64,000 nt of DNA from an uncultured Oligoflexia bacterium. GTDB lineage: Bacteria > Bdellovibrionota > Bacteriovoracia > Bacteriovoracales > Bacteriovoracaceae. This document shows positions 1-15,874 of this stretch, piece after piece. Location of the stretch: positions 1-64,000 of the forward strand of contig CAKZJW010000065.1 of NCBI GenBank assembly GCA_937120495.1, given 5' to 3'. A program made the translations under genes and the position numbers. The notes under the pieces were generated by a model, which saw only the letters and a program-made list of their open reading frames with translations, was not told where the DNA came from and ran no database searches. Every line of letters starts with the position of its first letter. The stretch's first letter is position 1.

Positions 1-1094
1 TTTTTATCTTTTATATTTTTTTCAATTCTTTTTGCCCACTCTTTATTAACCGATAAAAACTCTTTAAAGTTATCTTTTACTTCTAAAAACTGACATGTCT
101 TAAGATTTGCTATCGAACTCACGAGATAAATTTCTGGATAAAATTTATCTTCAAAAACTTCTAACTTTAAAGTTGCTAGAGCTCCTTTTACTGCAGGGTA
201 ATCACGTAAAAGAAGATTTGCCCAAATTTGTTCACTTTGAGCAGTTAAAAAATATTTAGAGCTTTGAGGGATAGAGCTATAGTACTCTGTCGCTGCACCA
301 AAAGCTTTAGCTTGATAAAGAAGTCTTGCAAGAGTTAGATAATAAAGTGAAATTTCTTCAATATCGTCAGTCTTTTCAATTACAGGTTCAACCACTTTTT
401 TAATTAATTTCGCACTGGCCTTTAGCTTATTCTCTTTTGAGTATTCAATCAAAGAAGTGTACGCCAATCTAAGCCTTAAAGGATTTCGTTTATCAAGTTT
501 CCCAATCCAGCGAGTTGCATTTTTACCCGTTCGTAGAGCTTTGAATGATTGCATAACATAATTAATCTTTGACTCAGTATTTTCAAATCTTTGAAGAGCA
601 AGAAGCTCATTCTCTGTAAAAAGAACACCATTTTGAATTAAATCTTTCGTTATATCTTTTGAAACAACATGATCAAGAGCTAAACCGATTTCCGATTTTA
701 AAATATTATGTTCAGAAGATTGAGTAATCCACCCCTTAACAAATGAATTCGTATATCCTTCTTTTCTAAGAAGATAAAGCTTAGCAACTTCTGCTGTTCT
801 CAAAAATCTTTGAGGGATTGCACCCTTAACTTTAGGATATAAGGTAAGAGCTTTTTCGAAGTTATGGCTTAAAATTAGATTAACCCACGTATTAACATCT
901 GGAGACAAAGCACCTGCGGCCTTCCATTTTCCAAAAAGTTGAATTAAAAATGCATCATCAAGTTTTAGCTGTTTTACTTGTTTTAAAGATGACGAAAGAT
1001 CAATATCTTCTCCATCCGTATTCATAAGTAAAGAAGTGCCCTTTTGTCCCCAACAAAGTGCCGAGAAGGTTAAAAGTATTAAAAGAATTTTCAC
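1..1094 (-). CDS. Secreted helical-repeat protein, 3' end cut by window edge
   Basis: Reading from a GTG at 1094 the frame stays open to base 1, giving at least 364 residues with no stop, so the C-terminus lies outside the window. The protein opens with a signal peptide (MKILLILLTFSALCWG) and continues as amphipathic helices rich in Leu, Ala and Lys, which looks like a TPR or similar solenoid. No catalytic motif is visible. The GTG overlaps the TGA of the barrel gene upstream by four bases, so it belongs to the gliding-like operon and is translationally coupled. A GltC-like periplasmic TPR role is possible but is inferred only from context. Confidence 0.75.
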   Translation of the reverse strand, partial: MKILLILLTFSALCWGQKGTSLLMNTDGEDIDLSSSLKQVKQLKLDDAFLIQLFGKWKAAGALSPDVNTWVNLILSHNFEKALTLYPKVKGAIPQRFLRTAEVAKLYLLRKEGYTNSFVKGWITQSSEHNILKSEIGLALDHVVSKDITKDLIQNGVLFTENELLALQRFENTESKINYVMQSFKALRTGKNATRWIGKLDKRNPLRLRLAYTSLIEYSKENKLKASAKLIKKVVEPVIEKTDDIEEISLYYLTLARLLYQAKAFGAATEYYSSIPQSSKYFLTAQSEQIWANLLLRDYPAVKGALATLKLEVFEDKFYPEIYLVSSIANLKTCQFLEVKDNFKEFLSVNKEWAKRIEKNIKDK

Positions 1095-1774
1095 AGTCTA
1101 TTTCCCTCACCAAATAGATAACCAAACTCAATATATCCCATCATATTATGAGTAAGTGTTTCTCCATCTAATTTTTTTTGAGTATAAAATTCATTTTTCA
1201 AACCAAAGCGTGAACTAAAATTCTTACCAAGCCAAAAAGCTAAACCGATATCTGCTGAATAAACAGAAGTATTACCTTGAGCAAGCTCTACTTCACCAAA
1301 ACCAAGGGCTAGGTAATTATCAAAATAAACAACTTGCTTATCACTTACACGAAGTTTTCCATAAAATAGATTATAATTACCAAAAATCTCTGTACTCTTT
1401 AATGCATAATCAGAGTCTGGAAGAAGATTCTTTTCTTCATACAGTTTTTCTCCAGCAGGAGTTAGCTTATTGCTGTAGCTTGAGTAGCGAAGACCTAAAC
1501 TCCAGTCTGAATTGATATGGTAGCGATAAGTTGCTAAAAATTGCTTCGTATCCATATGTGAATCTGGTAGGAAGTCATTTGATCCCCCCATTGTTAACTC
1601 ATGTCTATTAACTAAAGATGAATACCTTGTATTAACAATATAGAGCTTATCCTTAGATATAACAGGTGAAACCTTATCGTCAGGAATATTTAGTGAATCA
1701 AGTTTTGATTCTAAGCTTGCATAAAGATTAGATACAAATAGAAAACTTACTAGTACAACAAATTTATTTAACAT
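1091..1774 (-). CDS. Outer-membrane beta-barrel domain protein
   Basis: 227 residues with a signal peptide ending near Ala19 (FVSNLYA). The mature part shows alternating hydrophobic and polar residues with aromatic ends (for example YRYHINSDWSLGLRYSSYS and YIEFGYLFGEG), as expected for membrane-spanning beta strands. It resembles the small outer-membrane barrel proteins that accompany gliding or Tol-like genes in Myxococcota (TIGR04565-like, from memory). The gene overlaps the preceding lipoprotein gene by one base, so both come from the same transcript. It probably gives the envelope-spanning complex an outer-membrane anchor, comparable to GltA/GltB in Myxococcus; the exact orthology is not established. 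Confidence 0.7.
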   Translation of the reverse strand: MLNKFVVLVSFLFVSNLYASLESKLDSLNIPDDKVSPVISKDKLYIVNTRYSSLVNRHELTMGGSNDFLPDSHMDTKQFLATYRYHINSDWSLGLRYSSYSNKLTPAGEKLYEEKNLLPDSDYALKSTEIFGNYNLFYGKLRVSDKQVVYFDNYLALGFGEVELAQGNTSVYSADIGLAFWLGKNFSSRFGLKNEFYTQKKLDGETLTHNMMGYIEFGYLFGEGNRL

Positions 1775-3819
1775 TAGAATCTCCCCTTAAGCATTGTATT
1801 AAACCAAGTAGCAGGAATGGCTTTATCATCAGCGTGAACTTTTAAATCTGCCCACTCAGTCCCCAGAAGAACTAGTCTCCCTCCGCCGCTTCTTGAACAA
1901 ACAACACCAAGAACATAAGGACTAAATCCGTTAGGAGTTATCCCCATAACACTTTTACAATTTTTATTTGGATTATCTAATCCACCACTAAATACAAGAG
2001 GATTAAATGACTCCGAAGATGCACGAAGGCCAAGTTTTACTTGATGCATTGGAGTTTGAAACTGTGTTGTCGTTGCAAAATACGTATCTTCAATTTTTGG
2101 TGCATTAGAGATATCGTTATAACGGCCAATAAATTTCATATTATAAGAAACATTTAATTCATTTAAAAATTTATCCGGCATATTTCGCATAAGAGGACTT
2201 GCAATCACTAGGTTTTTAATCTCTTTCATGGCCTTTAAGATTTGAAGCTCAGCTCCTTTATCATAAAGAACACTCGTTCCAAGAACAAGAGTCTCTCTCT
2301 CTTTTACTGCACGAAGATTAATAGTCTGTAGAAGTGGGTTCATAACAGAAACGTCTGAAAGGTTTTCTTTGTAAAACTTAACTTCAGGATCTCTCGTTGA
2401 GTCGGCAAAGAATAATACCTTTGATCTATCTTCAGGGAATACTTCAACAATAAAACTTTCAGTAGTTGAAGTTTTATAATCACTAGTCGCTTTAACATGA
2501 AATTGATGAACACCAGGCTCGTCTATTTTCATAAAGATTCTTCCAGAAGAAATTGATACGAATTTTCTTATTTTCTTTGGAAAAATTTCAACTGTAGGTG
2601 TGATTCTTGGATCTTCACCATCAGTTATTTTTAAGTTTCTTGTTTCAGTTTTATTAAATCCTAAATAAATCAACTCACCAACAGGCCATGCAGATCTATC
2701 GATGATTGGAGATTTTCTATCTTTAACTTTTATAGCAATTTTAAGAGTTTCATAAGAACAATTATTTTTCCAACCGCTATCGTCTAAAACACATGCTTTA
2801 AAACCGATATCAATTGTCTTTCCATTATATGCAGGAGGAATATCATTCCACTTAACATTATAAACCGATGAATAACTATCAGCATTTTCTATTAGCTCAG
2901 CAGTAAATTTACCAAAGTTAGGTCTACTACTTGTGAACTCAATTGATGGTGAAATTTCTTTATTAAGATCATACGCTGCAATTTGAAAGCTTGCATCAAG
3001 CCCTTGTTCAAGCACAGGTGTTTGAGCTGTATTTGGGGTCTGAAGATTAACACCAAGCCTTTCATCATAAACAGTTATATCAAATTGTTTTTCACCAATA
3101 TGACCTGCAGGATTTGTAACTACAATTTTACTTGTGTGCTCTATTCTACTACCGTCTTGATCTCTATTTACATAATAATAATCTGGAGAGAATTCAACTC
3201 TATATTTTGTATCACTAATCTTTGAAAGCTTAGTATTAGCTGGCATATCACTAGTCACAACTCTAAAAGGACCATTTGGATAATCTTTATTAGAAATATC
3301 AAAGTCATAAGTTAAAGTTTTACCCTCATAAACACTTACTGAATTTGAAGAAGAGATATCAACTGTTCTAGGAGTATCACTAACCTTTAGGATAACTTTT
3401 TCACTCAGCTGTCTTTCAACAGAGTTAGAGCTTCTGAGATTTACTTGAATAACATAAGTTCTTACTTTAATTGATGGATCTTTTGGATCATTTCCATCAA
3501 AAAAACCTGGTGCCCATGTGATTACTAAGTTTTTATCATCAAAAGTCGCCCCAGCAGGAAGATTATCAATCCACACTAGTGGCTTTCCAGGTGCTTTAAC
3601 TTCAGCTTTAAACTGGTATTCACCCTTTCTTCCTTCTTTAAAATCCATTTGATTTAATATAGATAAAGCAAGAGGCTCAATACGAGTTTCTTCCTCGTCT
3701 CTTGGATCCCCATCATCTTGAGAAGTTCTTCTCGACTCACCAGAATTACCAAGTTCTGGATATGGATTGCTTTCACAACCAACAAGAATAATAAGTAATA
3801 AAATTAAAAATATCTTCAT
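1774..3819 (-). CDS. Large surface or periplasmic lipoprotein with Ig/cadherin-like repeats
   Basis: 681 residues. The N-terminus is a lipoprotein signal with lipobox LVGC, so Cys15 would be acylated. Residues about 50-460 read as several successive beta-sandwich modules of roughly 90-110 residues with putative-Ig/cadherin-type phrases (PAGATFDDKNLVITWAP, GKTLTYDFDISN). The last 200 residues differ: alternating hydrophobic strands and helices (KVLFFADSTRDPEV, MKEIKNLVIASPLM, GGGRLVLLGTEWADL) look like a Rossmann-type or GATase-like alpha/beta domain. Eight bases separate it from the AgmX-like gene. I do not recognise a named orthologue; a cell-surface adhesin or complex-scaffold role is inference. 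Confidence 0.7.
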   Translation of the reverse strand: MKIFLILLLIILVGCESNPYPELGNSGESRRTSQDDGDPRDEEETRIEPLALSILNQMDFKEGRKGEYQFKAEVKAPGKPLVWIDNLPAGATFDDKNLVITWAPGFFDGNDPKDPSIKVRTYVIQVNLRSSNSVERQLSEKVILKVSDTPRTVDISSSNSVSVYEGKTLTYDFDISNKDYPNGPFRVVTSDMPANTKLSKISDTKYRVEFSPDYYYVNRDQDGSRIEHTSKIVVTNPAGHIGEKQFDITVYDERLGVNLQTPNTAQTPVLEQGLDASFQIAAYDLNKEISPSIEFTSSRPNFGKFTAELIENADSYSSVYNVKWNDIPPAYNGKTIDIGFKACVLDDSGWKNNCSYETLKIAIKVKDRKSPIIDRSAWPVGELIYLGFNKTETRNLKITDGEDPRITPTVEIFPKKIRKFVSISSGRIFMKIDEPGVHQFHVKATSDYKTSTTESFIVEVFPEDRSKVLFFADSTRDPEVKFYKENLSDVSVMNPLLQTINLRAVKERETLVLGTSVLYDKGAELQILKAMKEIKNLVIASPLMRNMPDKFLNELNVSYNMKFIGRYNDISNAPKIEDTYFATTTQFQTPMHQVKLGLRASSESFNPLVFSGGLDNPNKNCKSVMGITPNGFSPYVLGVVCSRSGGGRLVLLGTEWADLKVHADDKAIPATWFNTMLKGRF

Positions 3820-3827
3820 CTCTTCTC

Positions 3828-5033
3828 CTAATTTCTTCCTACAGGTCTAAGCATAAATGGATACTTAACCGGAACTTTTACCCCTCCACGAGGTTTTGGA
3901 AACTGCCAATTCATCATTTTAGTCGTGATACATTTCTCAGTTGGCTTATGTTTTAGTGTTGTTCTATTTACTTTTGAGTAATCAAGTCTTCCTGTTGCAT
4001 TAATCATAAAGCTCACTTCAACTAATCCTTGAATATCAGGATTTGTTTTTAAACTCGACTCATAACAACGTCTAACTTGTGAAATATATTTTGCTATAGT
4101 TGCATTAATTGCATAACGACTAAGTCCACCTTGTAAAGTTAGGTCTGAATTAGATACGGCAATTGCAGAAATTCCTTTTCCATTACCAGAGGCAATCATA
4201 GAACTTCCATATCCGCCTTTTCCGCCGCCAGCGCCTTTTGTTCCAACGCCACCAAGACCAGCGACCCCAGTGTTTCCAACAGTTGTCTTTTTAAGTCCTT
4301 TACCAAGACCCGCAATTAGCTCTCCACCACTTCCAGCGTCTCCACCTTTACCAGCTCCAGCTGTTGCTTTTTTTAGTTTTTGAGGAACACCGCCAACAAC
4401 TTTTTTCATATCCTTAGAACCGGCCATACTTAAAAATCCTAAATTTCTTTTTACAGCAATTTTTGATTTTTGCGCTTTAGTTAAAGGCTTAGTTTTAATC
4501 TTAGGATTTGTTTGAGCTATTTTAACAACATCCGCTTTTTGAATAATCTTAACTGTTATCGTATCCTTAATTTCTTCTTTTTTCTCTTCTTCAACTGGTT
4601 GATTGAACATGAAGTATAAAATTGGAGTAACGATTAAAAGTGCGAATAAAAAGTTTTCTAAATTTTTAAAGATCCCCTCTGCCGGAGGTCTTTCTATATC
4701 AACTGAAGTTTGTATCACGCTTGAATTATTTAATTTTGAAATTTTAAAAATACCTTGAGTGGCCTTAAGGCTCCAGCCTTCATTAGTTGTTTTAATCAAC
4801 TCACAACCATGGAGGTTTGATATTTTATAATCATTATCAATCTTTTTTAAATCAAAAGAGAAATTCCACTTATTATCTGTATAGTCGAAAGCTTGTCTTT
4901 TTCTAGTGACGATACGTCTGTTCGCATTGGTTTCACTTGTGAATCCAAAAAGCTTATGAAATCCAAATGTATCATTTGTAAAATTTCTTAAAACCTTAAC
5001 TAATTCCCCATCCTGAGTCTGTATAGAGATCAT
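3828..5033 (-). CDS. AgmX/GltJ-like protein with TonB-type C-terminal domain
   Basis: 401 residues with no signal peptide. Residues 1-125 form a soluble, probably cytoplasmic domain; one membrane segment lies at 127-143 (FLFALLIVTPILYFMF). A Lys/acidic linker and a Gly-rich stretch (about 224-290) follow. The C-terminal domain (about 303-398) matches the AgmX/PglI C-terminal family, a TonB-C relative, with Cys333 in VRRCYE and Cys378 in EKCIT placed to form a disulphide. In Myxococcus such proteins carry force from the AglRQS motor across the periplasm. Its place downstream of TolQ/TolR genes and its four-base overlap with the CglF-like gene support that role. The short N-domain lacks an obvious zinc finger. 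Confidence 0.8.
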   Translation of the reverse strand: MISIQTQDGELVKVLRNFTNDTFGFHKLFGFTSETNANRRIVTRKRQAFDYTDNKWNFSFDLKKIDNDYKISNLHGCELIKTTNEGWSLKATQGIFKISKLNNSSVIQTSVDIERPPAEGIFKNLENFLFALLIVTPILYFMFNQPVEEEKKEEIKDTITVKIIQKADVVKIAQTNPKIKTKPLTKAQKSKIAVKRNLGFLSMAGSKDMKKVVGGVPQKLKKATAGAGKGGDAGSGGELIAGLGKGLKKTTVGNTGVAGLGGVGTKGAGGGKGGYGSSMIASGNGKGISAIAVSNSDLTLQGGLSRYAINATIAKYISQVRRCYESSLKTNPDIQGLVEVSFMINATGRLDYSKVNRTTLKHKPTEKCITTKMMNWQFPKPRGGVKVPVKYPFMLRPVGRN

Positions 5034-5290
5034 TTAATTTTCTCCCCCGCATTATTTGCCATATAGTCTACAAAGTTTTTTCTATGTTTTAATAAACCTA
5101 AATCTTTTTCACCAATATTTCCGGTAACAACACTCATGTCTGGCTTTTTATTTTCACCTTCAACAAGCAGTGATTCAAAATCAATACGTTTACCTTTTTT
5201 GTATTTCACTTTCTTTTTTTCAGCAGAGCTTTTAGCAAAAGAGAGATTTGAGAATGATAAAGCCAATATAAAAGTTAATACCCTAATCAT
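5030..5290 (-). CDS. CglF-like small periplasmic gliding protein
   Basis: 86 residues with a signal peptide (cleavage near Ala19, NLSFA). The mature part is short and charged: a Lys-rich start, then GKRIDFESLLVEGENKKPD, the kind of phrase seen in the small CglF/GltF-like proteins of myxobacterial gliding operons. There are four-base overlaps with the genes on both sides. The assignment rests on size, motif and context; the family is short and divergent, so orthology needs a profile search. Confidence 0.6.
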   Translation of the reverse strand: MIRVLTFILALSFSNLSFAKSSAEKKKVKYKKGKRIDFESLLVEGENKKPDMSVVTGNIGEKDLGLLKHRKNFVDYMANNAGEKIK

Positions 5291-8085
5291 TTCAACTGCT
5301 CCTTTCTCGCTTTGAAATACATTGCTAGTCTTTTAGACTCTCTTTTTTCATAGAAACTCTCTAGAGCTGAAATTGTCTCAACGCTATCAGGAGTCGTATG
5401 AAGAGAAGCTAAAGCTTTCTTATAGTCAGTATAATCAAATTCAGCTAAGTTATTTTTCTTTTTAATTTCTTCACTCTTAATAAATGCCACAAAGTTTTCT
5501 TCACCTGAATCAAGATTTTGAATCACACGTTTTTTCTCTGCAAATGCCTTAAGTTCTTCTTCTTGAAGTCTTTGGTAGTCTGCGGCCACTTTTTGAAAAG
5601 GTGCTGCAAGGTCTGCAAGCTGATTCATAACTGATGCAAGCGTTTGCTCATCAAGACCTTCTGGAATTGGTGTACTTTGAAGTTCAATTCCCATGATTTC
5701 ATAAGTCGCTTTTAACATTTGAAGAATATAAATTCTTGTCTCAGCATCACTTCCCTCTAAATACTTATTTGCGTATTTAGCGAAGCGATCAATTGCCTTA
5801 ACTCTTTTTTTGTATTTCCACTTAGAACTTCTTCCGTAGAAATTAATTCGAGAAGGTTTAGCATACTGTTTTTGAATTTTTGCTAAAACAAGTTTTGACC
5901 ATTGTGGTCCTGTAGATTCTTTTTGAGATAAAATAAACTTCTTAGCTTTTAAGCTATTATTTAAGGCTTCAAATCTATTTGCTAGTTGAATCTTCTTATT
6001 TAAAGACCAAGGAAGACCTAGTGATTTTTCATTAATTAAACCTGCTTCATCAAGAGTGACAAACAAGGCTGTTTCATACTTTGGATCAATGCTCTTTGAT
6101 CTTTTTATTTTAGTAATTACTTTTTTTAGAATTCGATCTCTTTTAGGAAAGTTTTGATCGAGTTCGTAAAGTAGAGCTATTTTCAAATAAGTATCATAGT
6201 CAGATTTTCTGTTTAGATTAAGCTTTTCTTGAAGTTTTGCTGCATCAGAGAAACGTCCCATCAGCTCATATTCATTTACAAGAGCTTTCTCATCTTTTTC
6301 TTTTTCTAAAAGGGCAACTAGTTTTGGCTGATCTTTTAATTTAACTGATAGAACTTTCGCATTTGGACATGATTTTTTAGGATAAACACCTTGGAAACAA
6401 AAATTATAAAAAGTCTCAAGACCCTTTTGAGTTTCACCAAGACTGGCCGCTGCTTCAAATTCTGCTTGAGTATAGATTCTATCAAAGTTTTCAAAATCTT
6501 TTTTATAAGTCTTATTAGAAGAAATTGTCGGAACACTTTTCCAAAGACTTACTTGCTTCATGATAGAGGCGTAATCTTTACTTTGATTATAAATATCAAG
6601 AGTTAAGTTCTGAGAAAGAACGGCCCACTTTGAAGCCTTTTCAGTTTTAGCAGCCTTTATTGTAAGAGAGTCAAATAAAGGCAGGGCCTCTTTAAACTTC
6701 TTTTGAGAATAGTATTCTCTAGCAGCAATATAAGTAAATTGATCTGCTTCATCTGTACTTTTAATCTCATTGTCTTTTTGAGATTTATTAAGAATTTGAG
6801 CTATTGCTAAAGAATCTTCTATAACAATATTTGGTTTATTTAATTTTTGCGCCAAAGAGAGACGAGTCTGGCGAAGTTTTCTAATTTCTTTATCACTTTT
6901 TCCAAAAGCTATATCTTCTTTTATCCAACTACCAAGACGAACAAGTTTTTTGTTTTTATCTGGCTGGGCTTTTAACCACCCCTGCTGCATATTTTTTCTA
7001 AGCTTATCATTTGGATACATCTTTAAGTAAATATCAATTGATCGACCTAATATTGGTAGTAAGTCTTCAGCAACCTGAGACTCAGCATCAACTTGAACAA
7101 CATATCTTCTAAGAGTCTCAAGAACTTCTTTAGATTTTTCTTTGTTCGCTGGAAGTACTGTCTTTTTTCTATCTTCTAGACGAGTAAGATACTCCTCTAC
7201 TTTATCCCAATTTCTAAATCCATAAAACTCTTCAAGAAGTCTCACTTCATTATAAATCGTAGGATTCTTTGTATTTAATTTTGCAAGTAAATTACTTCCC
7301 GCATTTCTATTTCCAGCAGCATAGAAAGCTTCCGTTAGTTTTGCATGAAGGTTTGGTCTATTTGTTTTTTTCGATAAACCATCGATATAGCTGTATTCAG
7401 CTTCACCGTTTCCAGAAAGATTAGACATAAACATAATCATATCAGTCAAAGAATTCTCTCTGATATTTCCGCCCATATCCCATAGTGAAAGCTTGATTTC
7501 AGCAACAGCTTTTTCAAGTTTAGTATCTTTATAAAAAAGCCACGCTCTTCTATAGTGAATATAGTTACAAGTTTCTTTTGCTGAACATAAGGAGATGGCT
7601 TTTTCATAATAACCATTTGCCTGTGTAAATCTTGCATCTTCTTCATACCACTCACCAAGGGCAAGGGCTGATTGTTCTTTTAGTTTTTTAGGTGATGCTG
7701 CATCTTTAAAAACCTGAAGGTAGTATCCTTCCGCTTTTTTATAGTCATCTAATTTTGTGGCAAGTCTTCCCATTTGAAACAAAATTTTAACTCGTGTAAG
7801 AGCTGGGTTCTTTGCTGACTTTGCATCAATAAGTGAGCTCTCATATAAAGAGAATGCTCTTTTTCTTTGTATTTCCTTATTGGCTTTAGTGTTTTTACCG
7901 TTTTCTTCTTTAATCGAAACATCAAAGTAGAGATCTGCAAGTCTAAGTGTTAATTCAACCCTACCTGGGTCATCAACATCTAGAGACTCTCGAAGATCTT
8001 CCATCTCTTTTATTAAATACTCTCCAGTATTTGCAAAAGAGCTAAAGCTTAAAATAAATACTAATAATAACAAAATATTTTTCAT
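5287..8085 (-). CDS. Large periplasmic TPR-repeat protein of the gliding-like operon
   Basis: 932 residues with a signal peptide (FILSFSSFA, cleavage near 18). Residues about 30-200 hold clear TPR units (for example LGEWYEEDARFTQANGYYEKAI), and degenerate helical hairpins continue to about 730. The C-terminal third is Lys/Glu-rich helix, probably coiled coil. Periplasmic TPR proteins of this size (AgmU/GltD, AglT/GltE) are fixed parts of Myxococcus gliding complexes, and this gene sits between the TolR pair and the AgmX-like gene. Which Glt protein it corresponds to cannot be told by eye. It directly abuts the TolR-like gene upstream. Confidence 0.75.
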   Translation of the reverse strand: MKNILLLLVFILSFSSFANTGEYLIKEMEDLRESLDVDDPGRVELTLRLADLYFDVSIKEENGKNTKANKEIQRKRAFSLYESSLIDAKSAKNPALTRVKILFQMGRLATKLDDYKKAEGYYLQVFKDAASPKKLKEQSALALGEWYEEDARFTQANGYYEKAISLCSAKETCNYIHYRRAWLFYKDTKLEKAVAEIKLSLWDMGGNIRENSLTDMIMFMSNLSGNGEAEYSYIDGLSKKTNRPNLHAKLTEAFYAAGNRNAGSNLLAKLNTKNPTIYNEVRLLEEFYGFRNWDKVEEYLTRLEDRKKTVLPANKEKSKEVLETLRRYVVQVDAESQVAEDLLPILGRSIDIYLKMYPNDKLRKNMQQGWLKAQPDKNKKLVRLGSWIKEDIAFGKSDKEIRKLRQTRLSLAQKLNKPNIVIEDSLAIAQILNKSQKDNEIKSTDEADQFTYIAAREYYSQKKFKEALPLFDSLTIKAAKTEKASKWAVLSQNLTLDIYNQSKDYASIMKQVSLWKSVPTISSNKTYKKDFENFDRIYTQAEFEAAASLGETQKGLETFYNFCFQGVYPKKSCPNAKVLSVKLKDQPKLVALLEKEKDEKALVNEYELMGRFSDAAKLQEKLNLNRKSDYDTYLKIALLYELDQNFPKRDRILKKVITKIKRSKSIDPKYETALFVTLDEAGLINEKSLGLPWSLNKKIQLANRFEALNNSLKAKKFILSQKESTGPQWSKLVLAKIQKQYAKPSRINFYGRSSKWKYKKRVKAIDRFAKYANKYLEGSDAETRIYILQMLKATYEIMGIELQSTPIPEGLDEQTLASVMNQLADLAAPFQKVAADYQRLQEEELKAFAEKKRVIQNLDSGEENFVAFIKSEEIKKKNNLAEFDYTDYKKALASLHTTPDSVETISALESFYEKRESKRLAMYFKARKEQLK

Positions 8086-8598
8086 CTACTTTCCTATTAC
8101 GGCTAACTGTATTGATTGGTACTGACTTGAGGTCAATACTCCCATTATTTGAGATACAGTTGTACTTTTAACTTCTTTATCCGCTTGTAAATTAATTTCA
8201 CCTGGAAATGGGTCAGAGTGACTCTTGGCCCATGAGTTTTTAATATAATTTAACTTCTTAAGTAAAAGATCCGGGCTTTTAGTAACAGCTGTAGTCGCTC
8301 CAACGAGTTTTTGATCAAGATATAGGTTTCCATTTTTAGACAAAGATAAAACTGGTGCCTCTCTTACTATAGAAGGAGTTACTGAGTTTGGAAGCTCAAC
8401 ACCCTTAGTGATCAAGATCTCTGGTGAACTAGAAAAAGTTTGAAGTAAAAAGACAACAAGCATGCTAAACATATCAACCATCGATGTTAACATCAAAGTG
8501 AATCCAGCAGCTTTAATCGCCCACGATTTCTTTCTTTTTCTATTTACTAAATGCTTTTCAAAAGCGGTACTTTCAACAAGGCTTGAATTTAATCTCAT
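8086..8598 (-). CDS. ExbD/TolR-family motor protein (second copy)
   Basis: 170 residues. A cytoplasmic N-terminus rich in Lys/Arg leads to one membrane helix (TLMLTSMVDMFSMLVVFLL, about 34-52) and a periplasmic domain. Asp42 in SMVDMF is the proton-carrying Asp of ExbD/TolR/MotB-type proteins, so the protein should be an active stator part. Two different TolR-like proteins next to one TolQ-like protein match the AglR-AglQ-AglS motor of Myxococcus. It overlaps the other TolR gene by one base. Confidence 0.88.
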   Translation of the reverse strand: MRLNSSLVESTAFEKHLVNRKRKKSWAIKAAGFTLMLTSMVDMFSMLVVFLLQTFSSSPEILITKGVELPNSVTPSIVREAPVLSLSKNGNLYLDQKLVGATTAVTKSPDLLLKKLNYIKNSWAKSHSDPFPGEINLQADKEVKSTTVSQIMGVLTSSQYQSIQLAVIGK

Positions 8599-9080
8599 TA
8601 TTTACCTCTCGCAGATAACACGCCGATATTTACGATTTTATTTTTACGTAGAACATCGAGTGTCTTAACAAGGTTTCCATAATTAATTTCGCTTCTTGGA
8701 GTAACTGTCGCTGAAGCGATTTCAATTGCTTTATTTTTAAAGTTCAATACTTTGCTTTGAACAATCGTGTTCATCTGAAGCATCATATCTTCAAAGTTTT
8801 CACCCTTAACTCTAAAACCTTTTACCGTTCTTCCATTCTTTTTAAGATTAAGTCGTAACTTTTGAGAACCTTGATAAACAACATCCAGATCATATGTGAT
8901 CTTCTTATTTGGCTTAGCATCTGTTCCATGGCTTTGTTTGATTTCAACTGTTCCAATTTCTATCCAAACAGCTGTAACGAGGAGGAAACAAACACATGTC
9001 GAGAGCAAGTCTATAAACGGTGTTAAGTTTAAGTCAGCATTTAAATCTTTCTTAGATCCAAGTCCTGTTTTATTTCTCAT
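8598..9080 (-). CDS. ExbD/TolR-family motor protein (first copy)
   Basis: 160 residues with the standard ExbD/TolR plan: short basic N-terminus, DLNLTPFIDLLSTCVCF membrane helix (about 17-42) and a periplasmic alpha/beta domain that ends near the C-terminus. The signature TPFIDLL is intact and Asp24 is the expected proton-binding residue. It is diverged from its neighbour, as AglQ and AglS are from each other. The gene starts 31 bases after the TolQ-like gene, and the two products would form one proton-driven motor in the inner membrane. Confidence 0.9.
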   Translation of the reverse strand: MRNKTGLGSKKDLNADLNLTPFIDLLSTCVCFLLVTAVWIEIGTVEIKQSHGTDAKPNKKITYDLDVVYQGSQKLRLNLKKNGRTVKGFRVKGENFEDMMLQMNTIVQSKVLNFKNKAIEIASATVTPRSEINYGNLVKTLDVLRKNKIVNIGVLSARGK

Positions 9081-9111
9081 AATTCATCCTAAAAAAATGA
9101 AAACTAATAAA

Positions 9112-9819
9112 TTAGTTTCTAGTTACAGAGTCTGTATTTTCTTTATTCGATCCAGCGCTAAAGTCTGTAGCGATAGATTCATCAGTATTTTCTGAGTAGA
9201 ATAAAAAGTCATGATAAAGAGCAGATGCCTCTTCTGTAAGCTTCGTTACAATTCCTTCAGTTTTAGAAGTAAAAACTGCAAAGGCAATTAGTGCTGGAAT
9301 AGCTGCTAATAATCCAAAAGCCGTAGAGTTTAGTGCTTCAGAAATACCTTGAGAAAGAAGGTTTGCTCTTTCTACTGGACTTGCTGCTGCAACACCGGCA
9401 AATGAACTAATTAGACCTGTAACTGTCCCTAGAAGACCAAATAACGTTGCAACGTTACCAAACATTGCTAAAAAACCAGTTCTTTTATCAATAGAGCTAA
9501 TTTCTTTAGATAGTTGTTCATCCATACGTGCTTGAAGTGCTTCGTCTCCAGCTCCGGCCATTCTCATTTTACAACCAACAGTAGCAACGTTTCCGATTGC
9601 TGTGTCTTTCGCTGACATTTCGATATAGTTTTTAGCTGCACCGAAGTCACCACTTGCTATAAAAGAAAGTATATTTTTTCTAAAATCTTTTGGAGCAGTT
9701 TTAAACTTCGCGTATAGAGCGATTGTTCTCTCTACTATAAGAGCACCAGTTAAAAGTCCAAAAAGTAAAATAAAGTACATAAAGAATCCACCAGCGTGGA
9801 ATTGTTCGATAAGATTCAT
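9112..9819 (-). CDS. MotA/TolQ/ExbB-family proton channel protein (AglR-like)
   Basis: 235 residues with three membrane helices (about 11-35, 116-143, 162-185). The second and third carry the family signature GLLGTVTGLI and STAFGLLAAIP, including the conserved Pro175. It is the first gene of the nine-gene minus-strand operon and has a strong ribosome site (AGGAGG) seven bases before ATG. With the two TolR-like proteins it should form the inner-membrane motor; the downstream Glt-like genes make AglR the closest named analogue. TolQ of a Tol-Pal system is less likely because no TolA, TolB or Pal gene is seen. Confidence 0.9.
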   Translation of the reverse strand: MNLIEQFHAGGFFMYFILLFGLLTGALIVERTIALYAKFKTAPKDFRKNILSFIASGDFGAAKNYIEMSAKDTAIGNVATVGCKMRMAGAGDEALQARMDEQLSKEISSIDKRTGFLAMFGNVATLFGLLGTVTGLISSFAGVAAASPVERANLLSQGISEALNSTAFGLLAAIPALIAFAVFTSKTEGIVTKLTEEASALYHDFLFYSENTDESIATDFSAGSNKENTDSVTRN

Positions 9820-10016: not shown

Positions 10017-10709
10017 ATGAAAATTAGTGACTTAACATTAATAATTCCAATTCTTAATGAACAGGACGAGCTACCGAAGCTATTTAAAAGGCTTAATATC
10101 TATCATAGTGACTTTAGAATCATATTTTGCGACGCAGGTAGCAAAGATAATAGTCTAAGCTTGTTAACAAATTTTTGTCAAAACAATCCAAACACAACAC
10201 TACTAACGGAAAAAATGGAAAAACCGTCTATTCTTAAAACAATATTATTGGCTCAGGACAAAATTCTTACAGAATATACTTTAATCCATCCAGTTGATAT
10301 TAGTATTGATCAGTTAGACTTACTCATCACCTCAAATTTTGACTATATGGTCTTTTTTAAAAAATACGAATCCAATAAGCTTTTCTTTAAAATTCAAGCT
10401 CTCTTTTTAAATTGGATTGACTTGAATATAAAACATAACTTTGTTTGGACAAATGCACTGACTCTAAGAACAGCTCTTTTAAAAGAACTTAAACTCTTTA
10501 AGATTGGTTTTTTAGAGGATGTTGTTATCTCGGATCACTTAAAGAAAAATTATCAGATCAAAATCAATAGAAGCAAAGTCTCTATATCAACAAGAAGGTA
10601 TTTAAAAACGGGGATATTCATACAATTTATCAGAAATTTTAAAATTATTATAAAGTTCCGTTTTGGAAACAAAGATATTGATGAATTAAAGCGTACCTAT
10701 CACAAATAA
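10017..10709 (+). CDS. Family 2 glycosyltransferase, TIGR04283-like
   Basis: 230 residues of GT-A fold. The start LTLIIPILNEQDELP and the nucleotide-binding segment FCDAGSKDNS (37-46) match the compact TIGR04283 glycosyltransferases, which usually read DGGSxDgT here. The canonical acidic motif is replaced by IHPVDIS, so metal binding may differ. The last 30 residues are basic and may touch the membrane. It lies divergent from the gliding-like operon. A TIGR04282-like protein, its frequent genomic partner, is encoded 5 kb away at 15215-15874. The substrate is unknown. Confidence 0.75.
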   Translation: MKISDLTLIIPILNEQDELPKLFKRLNIYHSDFRIIFCDAGSKDNSLSLLTNFCQNNPNTTLLTEKMEKPSILKTILLAQDKILTEYTLIHPVDISIDQLDLLITSNFDYMVFFKKYESNKLFFKIQALFLNWIDLNIKHNFVWTNALTLRTALLKELKLFKIGFLEDVVISDHLKKNYQIKINRSKVSISTRRYLKTGIFIQFIRNFKIIIKFRFGNKDIDELKRTYHK

Positions 10710-10925: not shown

Positions 10926-12596
10926 ATGAAATTATTAACGAGTCTATTTATACTCATAAGCTTTATTAGTTGTGAGAATCAATATCAGGAAAGTTCAATT
11001 GGCTTGCCCCCTAAAACAGAGCAAGTTAGAACTCCAAGTATCCCTGAAGAAGAAGTTGCACCAAGAAGCTCGTTCACTTTAAATGAAAATATTCAATTGT
11101 TTTTGGATTCATTCGTTGAAAAACAAAAAGGCGAAGGTCAAAACATCACAGCTGTGAATTACGAGAAACTTAAAAGACAAGAAAACTTGATACAAACGAG
11201 AGAACTTCTAGACACTATAAAACTTCAGTTTGAAGATCTAGATATATCATCTTTAAGCAAAGCGGAGATACAAGCAAACTATATAAACGCATATAATTTT
11301 GCCGCGGTAATTTTAGTCAAAAGTAATTTGTACAAAGAAGGGATTAGAATCAAATCTATAAAAGACTTATCTTCTTCAATTGGATCTCTTGATATTCTCG
11401 ATAAGAAAATACTATTTTTTGCTCAAAAAGAAATATCTCTTAACGACATAAAGAAAAAACTTAAAGAACTAGCAAACAACGATGCTCGCTATAACTTCTC
11501 ACTCGTGCCTGCATCAAATGGTATAAGCACAATCTACCAAGAAGCCTTTAATGGGAAAGAAATCAACCTTCAACTAGATGCTGTAACTAAAAATGCCCTA
11601 AAACTTCAAAGAGTCATAAAGATTAAAAAGAATAAATACAGAACTAATAATCAATTAAAAGAAATAGAAGAAGAATTATCTTCACATGTCTCTTATAATG
11701 GTTCAAAGGCGCACAGCATTGATAGCTTTATTAAGCTCTATAGAGAAGGTTTTAACTACAAATACAGCAAAAGAAGCTTTAAAAATGACTGGGGCTTAAA
11801 TATTGCGAAAGAAAATCTGTACACACAGAACTCTCTATCTGAAAACATTCAACTTTTTTATGATAAATACGTTGTTTTCAAACAAGAAGGCTCAGAAGAC
11901 ACATTAGTTGATTACGAGCAACTTTATAAAGATAAAAAAGACCAAGACACAAAAAATCTAAAAAGGGCCATTTATGATATGTACGCAGAAGTGGACTTGC
12001 AGAGCCTAAACAAAGAAGAAAGACTAGCACTTCTTATTAATGCCTATAACTTTTTTGCTATAGAAATGGTTAATTCAAATTTATATAAAAACGGTAAGAG
12101 ATTAAAATCAATTACCAAAATAGGCCTTATTCCCTTTAGTGCGTTTAAAAAGAAAATCTTTAATATTGGTGGAAAGATTAGATCTCTAGACAATATTGAA
12201 AAAGGTGGATTCCCGGGTAAGGAATCTGTAAAAGAGCTTCTAACTCATGAAAACGGAACAATTGATGCAAGATTTCACTTTGCCGTTATTTGTGCTGCCA
12301 AAGGCTGTCCTATACTTATGAAAGAAGCATACACTTCAAAAGATATCTATACTCAGCTGGATACAGCAACAATTGAAGGCCTAAAGCAGGCAAGAAATCT
12401 AAACCAAACCCAAGGAAAGCTTTACCTTACTGAGCTTTTTGATTGGTACGCACAAGATTTCAAAAATCATTCTACAAATGGAGAACAAGCGACAGGAAAT
12501 ATATCAAACTTCATACTTGATTTTTCACCGAACACTAACACTACTCTTCCCATAGGCTTTACGAAGTATGACTGGGATCTAAACATTTTGGAGTAA
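10926..12596 (+). CDS. Lipoprotein with two tandem DUF547 domains
   Basis: 556 residues. The lipoprotein signal ends in ISFISC (Cys16). Two DUF547 units follow, about 50-295 and 300-556. Both begin with LxENIQLFxD, contain YINAYNF or LINAYNF, and finish on DWGLNI or DWDLNI, which shows an internal duplication. Only the second keeps the Cys pair of the family (FAVICAAKGCPILM); in the first the same place reads FSLVPASNGISTIY, so that copy has probably lost the family function. It is the first gene of a tight four-gene operon (gaps 9, 10 and 13 bases). A ribosome site (TAGGAG) precedes the ATG. The biochemical role of DUF547 is not established. Confidence 0.85.
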   Translation: MKLLTSLFILISFISCENQYQESSIGLPPKTEQVRTPSIPEEEVAPRSSFTLNENIQLFLDSFVEKQKGEGQNITAVNYEKLKRQENLIQTRELLDTIKLQFEDLDISSLSKAEIQANYINAYNFAAVILVKSNLYKEGIRIKSIKDLSSSIGSLDILDKKILFFAQKEISLNDIKKKLKELANNDARYNFSLVPASNGISTIYQEAFNGKEINLQLDAVTKNALKLQRVIKIKKNKYRTNNQLKEIEEELSSHVSYNGSKAHSIDSFIKLYREGFNYKYSKRSFKNDWGLNIAKENLYTQNSLSENIQLFYDKYVVFKQEGSEDTLVDYEQLYKDKKDQDTKNLKRAIYDMYAEVDLQSLNKEERLALLINAYNFFAIEMVNSNLYKNGKRLKSITKIGLIPFSAFKKKIFNIGGKIRSLDNIEKGGFPGKESVKELLTHENGTIDARFHFAVICAAKGCPILMKEAYTSKDIYTQLDTATIEGLKQARNLNQTQGKLYLTELFDWYAQDFKNHSTNGEQATGNISNFILDFSPNTNTTLPIGFTKYDWDLNILE

Positions 12597-12605
12597 GGAA
12601 AAATC

Positions 12606-13787
12606 ATGAAAAAAATAATTATAACGACATTAATGATATCAAATCTTTCTTTTGCTGCGACAACAGTTTTAGCAACAAAAACAAAGACGAAGAAAAAAAA
12701 GAAAAATTTGAAAACAAACATCAGTTTATCGTACGCGATATCACAAATGAGCAATATGGATGAGTTAATAGAAAGTGATAAAGTTGCACAAGATATCATT
12801 TTAAACAGCTTGAGTTCGACGATCTCTTTAAATTATAAATATTCAAAAAAATTAAAATTAAAATCTACAACAAAAGGCGCTCTAACGAGATCCAACGACA
12901 TCCAAAAACAAGGTAATACGTTCACCAATAGAAATAATATTGATGAGAGTATTCGTTCTAAAAACTTTGATCAAGGATTTAGTGGAAGATATAAATACGA
13001 TAAGAAGCTCGCATTAAATCTTGGCCTTGATTTTGGTATATCAGAGAATTACTCAATTGAGCAATCATTTAAAGATGATAAAATCCAATACCATATTATT
13101 GATGATCCCTACAAAAAAGCCTCAATGATTACTGGTGGAAGATTTAAGCTTAACAAATCTCTTAGCTTCAATGCTCTTTATCGTTTTCAACAAATTGATC
13201 ATACGGAAAACCATACATTCATAGCAAATCAGGGGACAAATTCCAGAAGAATTCATTCTGTAGGAGCACAGCTTAGTTATAGATTAAAAAATAAATCAAA
13301 GTTTCTAATATCAGCTCAGCAAGATGAAACTTTTTATAAAGACAAGGTAGCTCTTTTAAAAGATAATACTTTTCAAACAGATGGAACAGGTAAAGCGTCA
13401 ACATTAAAAGATAGAAACATTAGATTAAAATACAAATTTAAGAAATTTTCTGCTTCTATCGGATATAGCAACAGAGACGATATTACGAGTGGAGCTGAAA
13501 GTTATGACAAGTATTCAATAGCACTAGATTACGGCCACAGCTTGGGAAAAAACAAGATCTCAGCTAAAATTGGTGCTGCATCTAAGTCTTTTAAGTCTCA
13601 AAAAGATGATAATCTTTCAGAGAAAAGAAATGATGAGTCTTTGAATCTAAGATTAGAACTTAAGCGACCTCTACTAAGTAGAGTTAATATGGCCGCCTAT
13701 ATTCAAAGAAATAATGTAAATAGTAATAATGTATTTGGTAAAGTTGAAAATAATAGTTTAGGCTTAACATTAAGTTCTAAGTTTTAA
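12606..13787 (+). CDS. Outer-membrane beta-barrel protein
   Basis: 393 residues with a signal peptide (LMISNLSFA). A very Lys-rich stretch (KTKTKKKKKNLKT) comes just after cleavage, then about 340 residues of repeated amphipathic strands such as LKLKSTTKGALT, RLKYKFKKFSASIGYS and a final Phe (LGLTLSSKF), the usual end of an outer-membrane barrel. I count enough strands for roughly 14-18. No named family is recognised. It lies nine bases after the DUF547 gene and ten before the acidic peptide gene, so the three should be made together. Confidence 0.7.
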   Translation: MKKIIITTLMISNLSFAATTVLATKTKTKKKKKNLKTNISLSYAISQMSNMDELIESDKVAQDIILNSLSSTISLNYKYSKKLKLKSTTKGALTRSNDIQKQGNTFTNRNNIDESIRSKNFDQGFSGRYKYDKKLALNLGLDFGISENYSIEQSFKDDKIQYHIIDDPYKKASMITGGRFKLNKSLSFNALYRFQQIDHTENHTFIANQGTNSRRIHSVGAQLSYRLKNKSKFLISAQQDETFYKDKVALLKDNTFQTDGTGKASTLKDRNIRLKYKFKKFSASIGYSNRDDITSGAESYDKYSIALDYGHSLGKNKISAKIGAASKSFKSQKDDNLSEKRNDESLNLRLELKRPLLSRVNMAAYIQRNNVNSNNVFGKVENNSLGLTLSSKF

Positions 13788-13797
13788 TGGAGTATAT

Positions 13798-14010
13798 ATG
13801 CAAAAGTTTTTAAGTCTTCTTATGTTTATTTTAGTTCTAACTTCTTTTTCTGCTAAGGTTGCTAAAGCTTCAGGTGGCGGGGGTTCTGGTTCAGGGTCAT
13901 CCAGTTCTTCAAGTGGTGGTGACTCAACTGATTCAGATGATATTTTTAGTGATGATGATGACAGTGATTGTGAAGACGAAAACGAAGACTGTTCAGAAGA
14001 AGATGAGTAA
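13798..14010 (+). CDS. Small secreted Ser/Gly/Asp-rich acidic protein
   Basis: 70 residues. A good signal peptide (LSLLMFILVLTSFSAKVAKA) is followed by a mature peptide of about 45 residues made almost only of Gly, Ser, Asp and Glu: first a Gly/Ser tract (SGGGGSGSGSSSSSSGG), then an Asp/Glu tail with two Cys spaced CX6C (CEDENEDC). It would be disordered, strongly negative, and a natural target for O-glycosylation or Ca2+ binding. It lies between the barrel gene and a membrane glycosyltransferase gene. An ATG with GGAG at good spacing supports translation. The function is unknown. Confidence 0.65.
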   Translation: MQKFLSLLMFILVLTSFSAKVAKASGGGGSGSGSSSSSSGGDSTDSDDIFSDDDDSDCEDENEDCSEEDE

Positions 14011-14023
14011 AAAATAAAAATTC

Positions 14024-15247
14024 ATGAGTAGATATAATATAAATTTATTATTTTTGTATCTGCTCAATATCTCTTTTGTCGTAATAAGCTATTTCCTACA
14101 TCAAAAATTCCAACAGACTCATAAATACTCCGAATTTGAATATTTTTTGATATTTCAAGTTCTTTATTTCTTATGGTGGAAATTCTCAAATTTTGAATTA
14201 AAAAATAAATGGCATCTTCTCTTTATTGGATTTTTATTTTTAGGATCCGAACCTCTATTTGAAAATGATCATTATCGTTATTTTTGGGAAGGAAAAGTAA
14301 TAGCAGGAGGCTACAATCCATATAAACTAGCTCCTAATTCTAAAAAACTAAACCATATTGAATTCAGTAAACGAACTCAGATCTCTTATAATAAACTCAC
14401 AACAATCTATCCTCCATTAGCACAAGTATTCTTTACCCTTCTATCTCCACTTAAATACAAAACGGCATTAATGCTTATGCAATCAATTGGCTTGTTAATG
14501 CTAATCTATATTGTATTCAACTTATTTCCTTCAAATAAAAAGTACCTTCTACTTATTTATCCATATCTTTGTAAGGAATTTGTTCAAGCCGTACATATTG
14601 ATATACTTGCTTGTCTTATTCTTTTGATCTTCTTGAATAAAAACAAAGTTTTCACAGGTATTTATCTTTCTTTTTTAACAAAGATAATTTCAATCCTTGC
14701 CCTTCCTTTTTACTTCTTTAAAGGGGTACTAACTAATAGAAAGCTATTAATGAAAACTCTTGTTTGTTCAAGCTTAGTGTTAGTAACGCTTCTTCTATAC
14801 CCTACAGATCTCTCTTATCACTCTGGAGCAAGTGCATTTGTAAAATTTTGGTCTTGGAATTCTCTAATATCAATTATTTTAGTTAATCAAAAATTTAGTC
14901 AAAATGAGATAAGAATAATTAGTCTTCTATTATTCTCAGCTTCTTATGCCTATCTCTTATTCCTTTTCTATAAAAGTAATCGAGATCAGGTAAAAAAATA
15001 TATTTCAGTTTCATATATGTTTTTATTTCTCTTTGCTCCTGTATTACATCCTTGGTACTTGATATGGCCTATGATTTGGGCAATACCAAATAAATGGTAT
15101 TTTTACTTTCTGTTTAGCTCATTTCTTGCCTACTATCCCTATGGTTCTAGTGTTTTAGAAGTGTATGCTGAATGTATACAATTTTGTTTGTTGGGAATTG
15201 CTATCTATAAAGAACTAAAAACTCTTAGTATAAAGTGCATTGATTGA
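14024..15247 (+). CDS. Polytopic membrane glycosyltransferase, GT87/GT-C-like
   Basis: 407 residues with about 9-11 hydrophobic helices across the whole length. An early loop after the second helix reads ENDHYRYFWEG then GGYNPYK, which matches the DxxRYLWDG...GxNPY signature of GT87/PIG-M-like polyprenyl-phosphate-dependent GT-C enzymes; the acidic residue there is the likely catalytic one. Later loops (HPWYLIWP) are also typical. Such enzymes transfer sugars on the outer face of the inner membrane. It is the last gene of the DUF547-barrel-peptide operon and overlaps the convergent gene by 33 bases. Acceptor and donor are unknown. Confidence 0.75.
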   Translation: MSRYNINLLFLYLLNISFVVISYFLHQKFQQTHKYSEFEYFLIFQVLYFLWWKFSNFELKNKWHLLFIGFLFLGSEPLFENDHYRYFWEGKVIAGGYNPYKLAPNSKKLNHIEFSKRTQISYNKLTTIYPPLAQVFFTLLSPLKYKTALMLMQSIGLLMLIYIVFNLFPSNKKYLLLIYPYLCKEFVQAVHIDILACLILLIFLNKNKVFTGIYLSFLTKIISILALPFYFFKGVLTNRKLLMKTLVCSSLVLVTLLLYPTDLSYHSGASAFVKFWSWNSLISIILVNQKFSQNEIRIISLLLFSASYAYLLFLFYKSNRDQVKKYISVSYMFLFLFAPVLHPWYLIWPMIWAIPNKWYFYFLFSSFLAYYPYGSSVLEVYAECIQFCLLGIAIYKELKTLSIKCID

Positions 15248-15874
15248 TTCTTTAAAGTAATCATCACCTGAAGTACTTAGCCAAACTAATAAGTCCTCTT
15301 TTGTGTCGATATCAATTAATCTTTCTAATAAAGAAGAACTTTGGTTCTTTCTCTTTATTCGAGAAAGTGACTCTTTTAAAACATCTGAGTGACTCCAAGT
15401 CATATTTTCAAAAAGAAATGATGCTTCTTCTTTCATACCTATTAAATAATAACCACCATCAACTGCTGGGCCAAAGACGAAATCAGATTTTTCAAGCGAC
15501 ATAAAAGCATCAGAAATATTGCTCTTCCCTAAGTCAGGTGTATCTGTTGCACAAATAATAACCTTCTTATGACCTAAGCATAATACATCTTTTATTGCTT
15601 GATTCATCTTCTGACCTAAAGAATTTCCAACTTGAGAACTAAGAATAAATTTAAATTGATTATCAAATTTAGAAATATCTTTATTATCAGAAAAGAATAT
15701 ATAGACTTCTATATTATTTAAGGACGTGAGCTTCTCTAAAACATAAGATGAACATTTCGAATAAAATTCAAAGGCAAACTCATCACCAAGCTCTTTGGCA
15801 AGTCGTGTTTTAACTTTTCCTAATTCTGGATACCTATAAAAAACAATTAAAGCATTTTCTTTTAAACGCTCCAA
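15215..15874 (-). CDS. TIGR04282/DUF2064-like glycosyltransferase (CofC-like fold)
   Basis: 219 residues. The N-terminal LIVFYRYPELGKVKTRLA is the diagnostic motif of the TIGR04282 (DUF2064) family, nucleotidyl- or glycosyltransferase-like proteins related to CofC. Further family motifs are CATDTPDLG (the Asp-containing substrate loop) and FGPAVDGGYYLIGM. The start overlaps the end of korB by 13 bases, so it is expressed at the tail of the kor operon, yet its usual genomic partner (TIGR04283) lies at 10017-10709. Members are often found near arsenosugar genes; no ArsS or ArsM is present here. Confidence 0.8.
   Translation of the reverse strand: MERLKENALIVFYRYPELGKVKTRLAKELGDEFAFEFYSKCSSYVLEKLTSLNNIEVYIFFSDNKDISKFDNQFKFILSSQVGNSLGQKMNQAIKDVLCLGHKKVIICATDTPDLGKSNISDAFMSLEKSDFVFGPAVDGGYYLIGMKEEASFLFENMTWSHSDVLKESLSRIKRKNQSSSLLERLIDIDTKEDLLVWLSTSGDDYFKESINALYTKSF

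Follow-up and report, generated by a model that had tools for sequence, protein, structure and literature searches.

An envelope operon of a DUF547 lipoprotein, a porin-like barrel and an SG(G)n-headed peptide in Bdellovibrio-like bacteria

Four closely spaced genes in the DNA of an uncultured Oligoflexia bacterium of the family Bacteriovoracaceae raise the question of what a DUF547 lipoprotein, a predicted outer-membrane barrel, a small acidic secreted peptide and a putative GT-C type membrane glycosyltransferase do together. The genes lie in one direction on the + strand, at positions 10926-15247 of a stretch of 64,000 nucleotides that is called the window here (GenBank assembly GCA_937120495.1, contig CAKZJW010000065.1, positions 1 to 64,000). 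The gaps between them are 9, 10 and 13 bases, and in this the coordinates of the open reading frames (ORFs) bear out a preliminary description of the window. The same description took the genes for a surface system in which the peptide is glycosylated and displayed. As to an envelope system, it was upheld by the relatives: DUF547, the barrel and an exported protein with an SG(G)n head are a conserved operon core, an envelope module, with DUF547 followed by the barrel at 22 loci in 21 genomes and 12 genera from two families of Bdellovibrionota.

Gene order and co-occurrence in relatives

A search with the single barrel sequence found no relative. Relatives were found through the neighbour genes of the barrel, and their neighbourhoods showed a run of DUF547, barrel and short peptide in other genera; profile searches then located the barrel both within the window's family and in a second one, f11. 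The search for the module covered one phylum, Bdellovibrionota, with the genes of relatives called by a simple ORF caller and with many of the relatives being incomplete metagenome assemblies. Sixteen of the DUF547-barrel loci belong to the window's family (15 genomes, G059 having two copies) and six to f11. At 20 of the 22 loci the barrel is followed by a gene for an exported SGG protein, which is a stand-alone peptide at 11 loci and a DUF547 protein with a glycine-rich mature N-terminus of SGG or SGN type at nine (both G059 copies, G100 and all six f11 loci). Since this third gene encodes either the peptide or a DUF547 protein with the same head, fusion ties the two together; eight genomes have the SGG head fused to DUF547. 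Ns in the assembly break up the DUF547-like gene upstream in the first of the two G059 copies (L083).

In each of the 13 family genomes with the stand-alone peptide, its gene adjoins that of a barrel. These include G105 and G106, where nothing follows the first barrel and the peptide gene stands in front of a second barrel paralogue of the same genome; at one such locus (G105, L115) the peptide-barrel pair has no DUF547 alongside. The second paralogue was seen at L178 4985-6593, L180 1854-3478, L113 12266-13483 and L051 9899-11116, beside TIGR04283, TIGR04282, AglJ and GT-C genes and upstream of MsrB/MsrA. G004 gave a weak barrel match, but none of the module genes lie nearby.

The operon of the window and the genes that flank it are as follows.

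10017..10709, + strand: TIGR04283-like GT2 glycosyltransferase (NCBIfam TIGR04283 E 4.4e-18, below cut-off; Pfam Glycos_transf_2 above cut-off)
10926..12596, + strand: tandem DUF547 lipoprotein of 556 residues (Pfam DUF547; lipobox-like FISC)
11073..11825, + strand: first DUF547 copy, pseudo-domain (alignment with the second copy and relatives)
11826..12596, + strand: second DUF547 copy, invariant residues complete (alignment; AlphaFold2 model)
12606..13787, + strand: predicted porin-like 16-strand outer-membrane beta barrel of 393 residues (AlphaFold2, Foldseek)
13798..14010, + strand: secreted acidic peptide of 70 residues (signal peptide; orthologues beside barrels)
14024..15247, + strand: putative GT-C type polytopic membrane glycosyltransferase, MptB-like (sub-threshold NCBIfam MptB, alignment)
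15215..15874, - strand: TIGR04282 family protein, CofC-like (NCBIfam 184 bits, cut-off 134)

The TIGR04283-like gene ends 216 bases upstream of the operon, and the TIGR04282 gene is convergent with the GT-C gene, overlapping its 3' end by 33 bases. Both flanking genes, which the preliminary description missed, are part of the functional set of the operon, the TIGR04283-like GT2 being a probable sugar-transfer partner in the same pathway. Promoter and terminator scans gave signals no better than in shuffled sequence.

In relatives, the genes of the DUF547-barrel-SGG core stay adjacent but GT-C does not always stay with them, as it is directly next in three genera only and is elsewhere nearby, divergent or unlinked. 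The full four-gene order was found in the window genome (G000), G005 and G144, and in a fused SGG-DUF547 version in the two copies of G059. GT-C is convergent in G014, nearby in G008, G087, G088 and G108, and divergent beside the DUF547 gene at five f11 loci. The position after the SGG protein is often taken by either GT-C or TIGR04282. Chance adjacency was ruled out by conservation across the two families.

Co-occurrence gave a nested picture. Among 129 genomes of the window's family, the barrel was found in 15, GT-C in 24 and TIGR04282 in 41; 14 of the 15 barrel genomes have GT-C and all 15 have TIGR04282, as do all 24 GT-C genomes. GT-C occurs without the barrel in 10 family genomes and TIGR04282 in 26. 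At the genus level, all nine barrel genera fall within the 15 of 48 genera that have GT-C (hypergeometric 3e-6, with no full phylogenetic correction). Because of this nesting, the module looks like an accessory to a more widespread sugar pathway.

The barrel and the acidic peptide

The assignment of gene 2 as an outer-membrane barrel was supported by AlphaFold2, which predicts 16 strands with a mean predicted local distance difference test (pLDDT) score of 82.9. The closest PDB folds found by Foldseek are porins of the Occ/OpdQ/OmpG kind, with a template modelling (TM) score of about 0.5; Pfam matches stayed below the cut-offs, so that no Pfam family was assigned.

Gene 3 encodes a signal peptide and 46 mature residues, 40 of them Gly, Ser, Asp or Glu, much as first described. 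The mature peptide of the window has an SGGGGSGSG head and an acidic tail, with a net charge of -18. Across complete orthologues the mature length is 46-66 residues and the net charge -8 to -19, and what is conserved is the SG(G)n head (SGGGG) with the acidic tail. The content of Ser and Thr varies from 5 to 33%.

The peptide was regarded in the preliminary description as the product of the system, the GT-C enzyme O-glycosylating its Ser tract and the barrel exporting or anchoring the surface glycopeptide. GT-C enzymes work at the outer side of the inner membrane, the GT-C gene stands directly after the peptide gene in the window, G005 and G144 and accompanies the barrel in 14 of 15 genomes, and the window peptide is 33% Ser+Thr, all of which would suit a glycopeptide. 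However, the Ser tract is not conserved: Ser and Thr make up 10% of the peptide in G107 and 5% in G032, and the six-Ser run is found in the window peptide only, the longest Ser/Thr run being 1-3 in other orthologues and none longer than 1 in G032. Furthermore, the eight fusion genomes have the segment at the front of a DUF547 protein and not as a free peptide, and the peptide cannot be the sole acceptor of GT-C or TIGR04282, because both occur without the barrel. On the composition of the orthologues, the Ser tract as a conserved glycan acceptor was given up, and a glycopeptide product is considered quite improbable.

The net charges of the peptide and of the barrel beside it are anticorrelated (rho -0.77, n=11, p 0.005, near-duplicates included), and barrel charge showed no such correlation with the charges of DUF547 or GT-C. 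This is suggestive of peptide-barrel contact but is not proof. Such charge complementarity, together with the porin-like fold and with the peptide being tied to the barrel more strictly than to GT-C, would also fit a model in which the peptide acts as a chaperone that helps the barrel to assemble or to cross the periplasm, while the predator uses the barrel as a porin for uptake and the neighbouring glycosyltransferases serve another product. That model is unlikely, as it meets the nested co-occurrence with GT-C and TIGR04282 and the repeated presence of one or the other next in the operon.

The DUF547 protein and the sugar enzymes

The lipoprotein-like product of gene 1 is a member of DUF547, a domain that occurs in bacteria and plants, with a Pfam match of 84.1 bits in two stretches against a gathering cut-off of 27, and it carries a lipobox-like FISC ending at Cys16-17 of its signal sequence. 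Invariant residues among 26 aligned DUF547 proteins include N88, Y90, N91, E141, H167, F168, A169, C172, C177, P178, W223, D227 and F228, giving the motifs N-x-YN, E and H-F-A-x-x-C-x4-C-P. The tandem arrangement claimed in the preliminary description was confirmed by the two Pfam stretches, but one of the two copies, the first, is a pseudo-domain. It shares 35% identity with the second but has lost the invariant His, the Cys pair and the WY-DF motif at the C-terminal end, and therefore is probably a non-catalytic duplicate. Every invariant residue is kept in the second copy, which gave a confident AlphaFold2 model (mean pLDDT 92.5) with no significant PDB match by fold or by sequence. A Cys-protease or transglutaminase fold was rejected on the absence of such a match.

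A different use of the peptide head can be imagined by analogy with the oligoglycine acceptor of sortase, in which DUF547, as a thiol enzyme, would attach a partner in the envelope to the free N-terminal oligoglycine, with the barrel displaying the ligated product. The invariant His, Cys, Cys and Glu of DUF547 and its fold without PDB match are compatible with such a ligation handle. So is an excess of SG starts: of the signal-peptide-like genes near the clusters, 18 of 200 have SG immediately behind the predicted cleavage site, versus 1 of 239 elsewhere in the same genomes, with signal peptides called by a home-made rule; the hits include unrelated YHS and short secreted families. Nevertheless, this excess arises partly because the peptide and DUF547-fusion families carry SG themselves, which inflates the counts, and the two Cys may form a structural disulfide. 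Ligation of this kind is very unlikely. SG starts after a predicted signal were seen near the clusters in secreted proteins unrelated to the peptide (YHS domain, short secreted, spondin-like), at L104 2219-2740, L106 10545-11075, L083 2806-3183, L053 6077-6481 and L075 8805-9455, and an SG start common to them and the peptide is a possible shared N-terminal signal. A still broader system is highly doubtful, in which the DUF547 thiol enzyme, of unsolved fold, would recognise mature SG(G)n heads for sorting or ligation and join them to, or thread them into, a dedicated barrel, a GT-C-made glycan being a possible partner.

The GT87-like label first given to gene 4 was dropped, as Pfam returned no GT87 match. 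NCBIfam MptB (NF038066) scored 26.6 bits (E 1.9e-6), below its cut-off of 40, and a search by sequence found no solved GT-C relative. The protein has hydrophobic segments, and E80, N81 and D82, followed by RY, are invariant in 14 aligned relatives; it is predicted to be a GT-C type transferase. Its relatives with named records are mostly from Bacteriovoracaceae and Halobacteriovorax, within Bdellovibrionota. Of the flanking genes, the one matching at window 15218-15874 (- strand) is a TIGR04282 member (184 bits, curated cut-off 134), whereas the upstream GT2 is related to TIGR04283 but no member by cut-off (65.7 bits against 182). AglJ-like polyprenyl-phosphate-hexose GT2 genes adjoin the GT-C gene in many loci; those of the window genome (3.3 Mb in 150 contigs) lie on other contigs than the operon.

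NCBIfam names TIGR04282 and TIGR04283 arsenosugar glycosyltransferases, and in G007, G008, G017 and others a DUF547-GT-C set is bordered by ArsM-like and radical S-adenosylmethionine (SAM) genes, so the linked pathway might be of arsenosugar type, with the barrel as its outer-membrane porin. But the ArsM-like and ArsS-like proteins of relatives score far under the curated cut-offs (104 bits against 400 and 60 against 300) and neither gene lies beside the window operon, which makes this explanation decidedly improbable. The literature searched held nothing usable on TIGR04283 and arsenosugar gene clusters. At L047, L048, L050 and L117 a separate conserved set was seen, made up of an ArsM-like methyltransferase, a single DUF547, a radical SAM protein and GT-C, and likewise below the arsenosugar cut-offs. 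In genus g32 (L056, L077, L079, L080), sigma-factor-like, small membrane and VTT-domain genes precede the DUF547 genes, some with a MerA-like flavin adenine dinucleotide (FAD) oxidoreductase.

The simplest model, proposed tentatively at somewhat less than an even chance, is that the module is an accessory which serves a polyprenyl-phosphate-sugar/GT-C pathway in outer-membrane export or display, the peptide being the soluble partner of the barrel. TIGR04282, TIGR04283-like and AglJ-like GT2 proteins in the cytoplasm would load a sugar onto polyprenyl phosphate, and the GT-C enzyme would transfer it on the periplasmic side of the inner membrane. At the outer membrane, the DUF547 lipoprotein would handle or modify the product, and the barrel would display it or carry it across the outer membrane. 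The flexible SGGGG head of the peptide may enter the pore as plug or tether while the acidic tail docks onto basic parts of the barrel; since the SGG head is fused to DUF547 in the second family, f11, the tether there would carry the DUF547 domain itself. Several points weigh against this model. In G007, G032 and G107 the GT-C gene has no linkage to the operon; the peptide-barrel charge correlation drops to p 0.08 after removal of near-duplicates (n=8); and the literature searched gave no bacterial function for DUF547, which together with the missing fold match makes its role in the model a guess.

Upstream of the operon and its GT2, the window holds at 1091-9819 (- strand) a run of genes that resembles the Agl/Glt gliding-motor type clusters of predators. 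It encodes ExbB/TolQ-like and ExbD/TolR-like proteins, a lipoprotein, a large protein rich in repeats and a Gly-rich one that ends in a TonB/AgmX-like part.

Comparison with known systems

No description of a DUF547-barrel-SGG module was found in the literature searched, in line with the novelty claimed at the outset, and this is apparently an undescribed conserved envelope module of Bdellovibrio-like predatory bacteria. Outer-membrane functions at the contact with prey are of interest in such bacteria. The threading of a lipoprotein through a barrel is known from RcsF-OmpA, and the likeness to the module lies in the notion that a flexible segment at the N-terminus may run through a barrel of the outer membrane; the window peptide, for which threading is a proposal, has no lipid and shows no sequence relation.

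An exported DUF3570 protein of ~400 residues and a small secreted protein are encoded in one envelope gene cluster in DUF3570/DUF4266 clusters with ApbE (PMC8238504). The window likewise encodes an exported protein of about this size with a small secreted one. In contrast, its barrel has no DUF3570 match and no [S/T]GA[S/T] flavinylation motif, its peptide has the N-terminal SGGGG head in place of a C-terminal CXC, which is absent from all 12 peptides, and the partners are DUF547 and sugar enzymes. Membership in the flavinylated system was ruled out by models and motif, with no search made for ApbE in the genome. MptB-type polyprenol-phosphomannose-dependent GT-C mannosyltransferases (NF038066) resemble gene 4 as polytopic membrane proteins with C-terminal similarity (E 1.9e-6), but the window protein falls below the cut-off and stands in another operon context.

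A likeness in gene content is DUF547 (PF04784) near TIGR04282/TIGR04283, as relatives show DUF547 beside genes for TIGR04282, TIGR04283-like GT2, VTT-domain and FAD oxidoreductase proteins, whereas the window has the lipoprotein form in an operon with the barrel and the SGG-headed peptide. The role of DUF547 is now testable, because the operon supplies it with a linked pathway and with two partners, one being the barrel and the other the SGG-headed protein, as peptide or as fusion.

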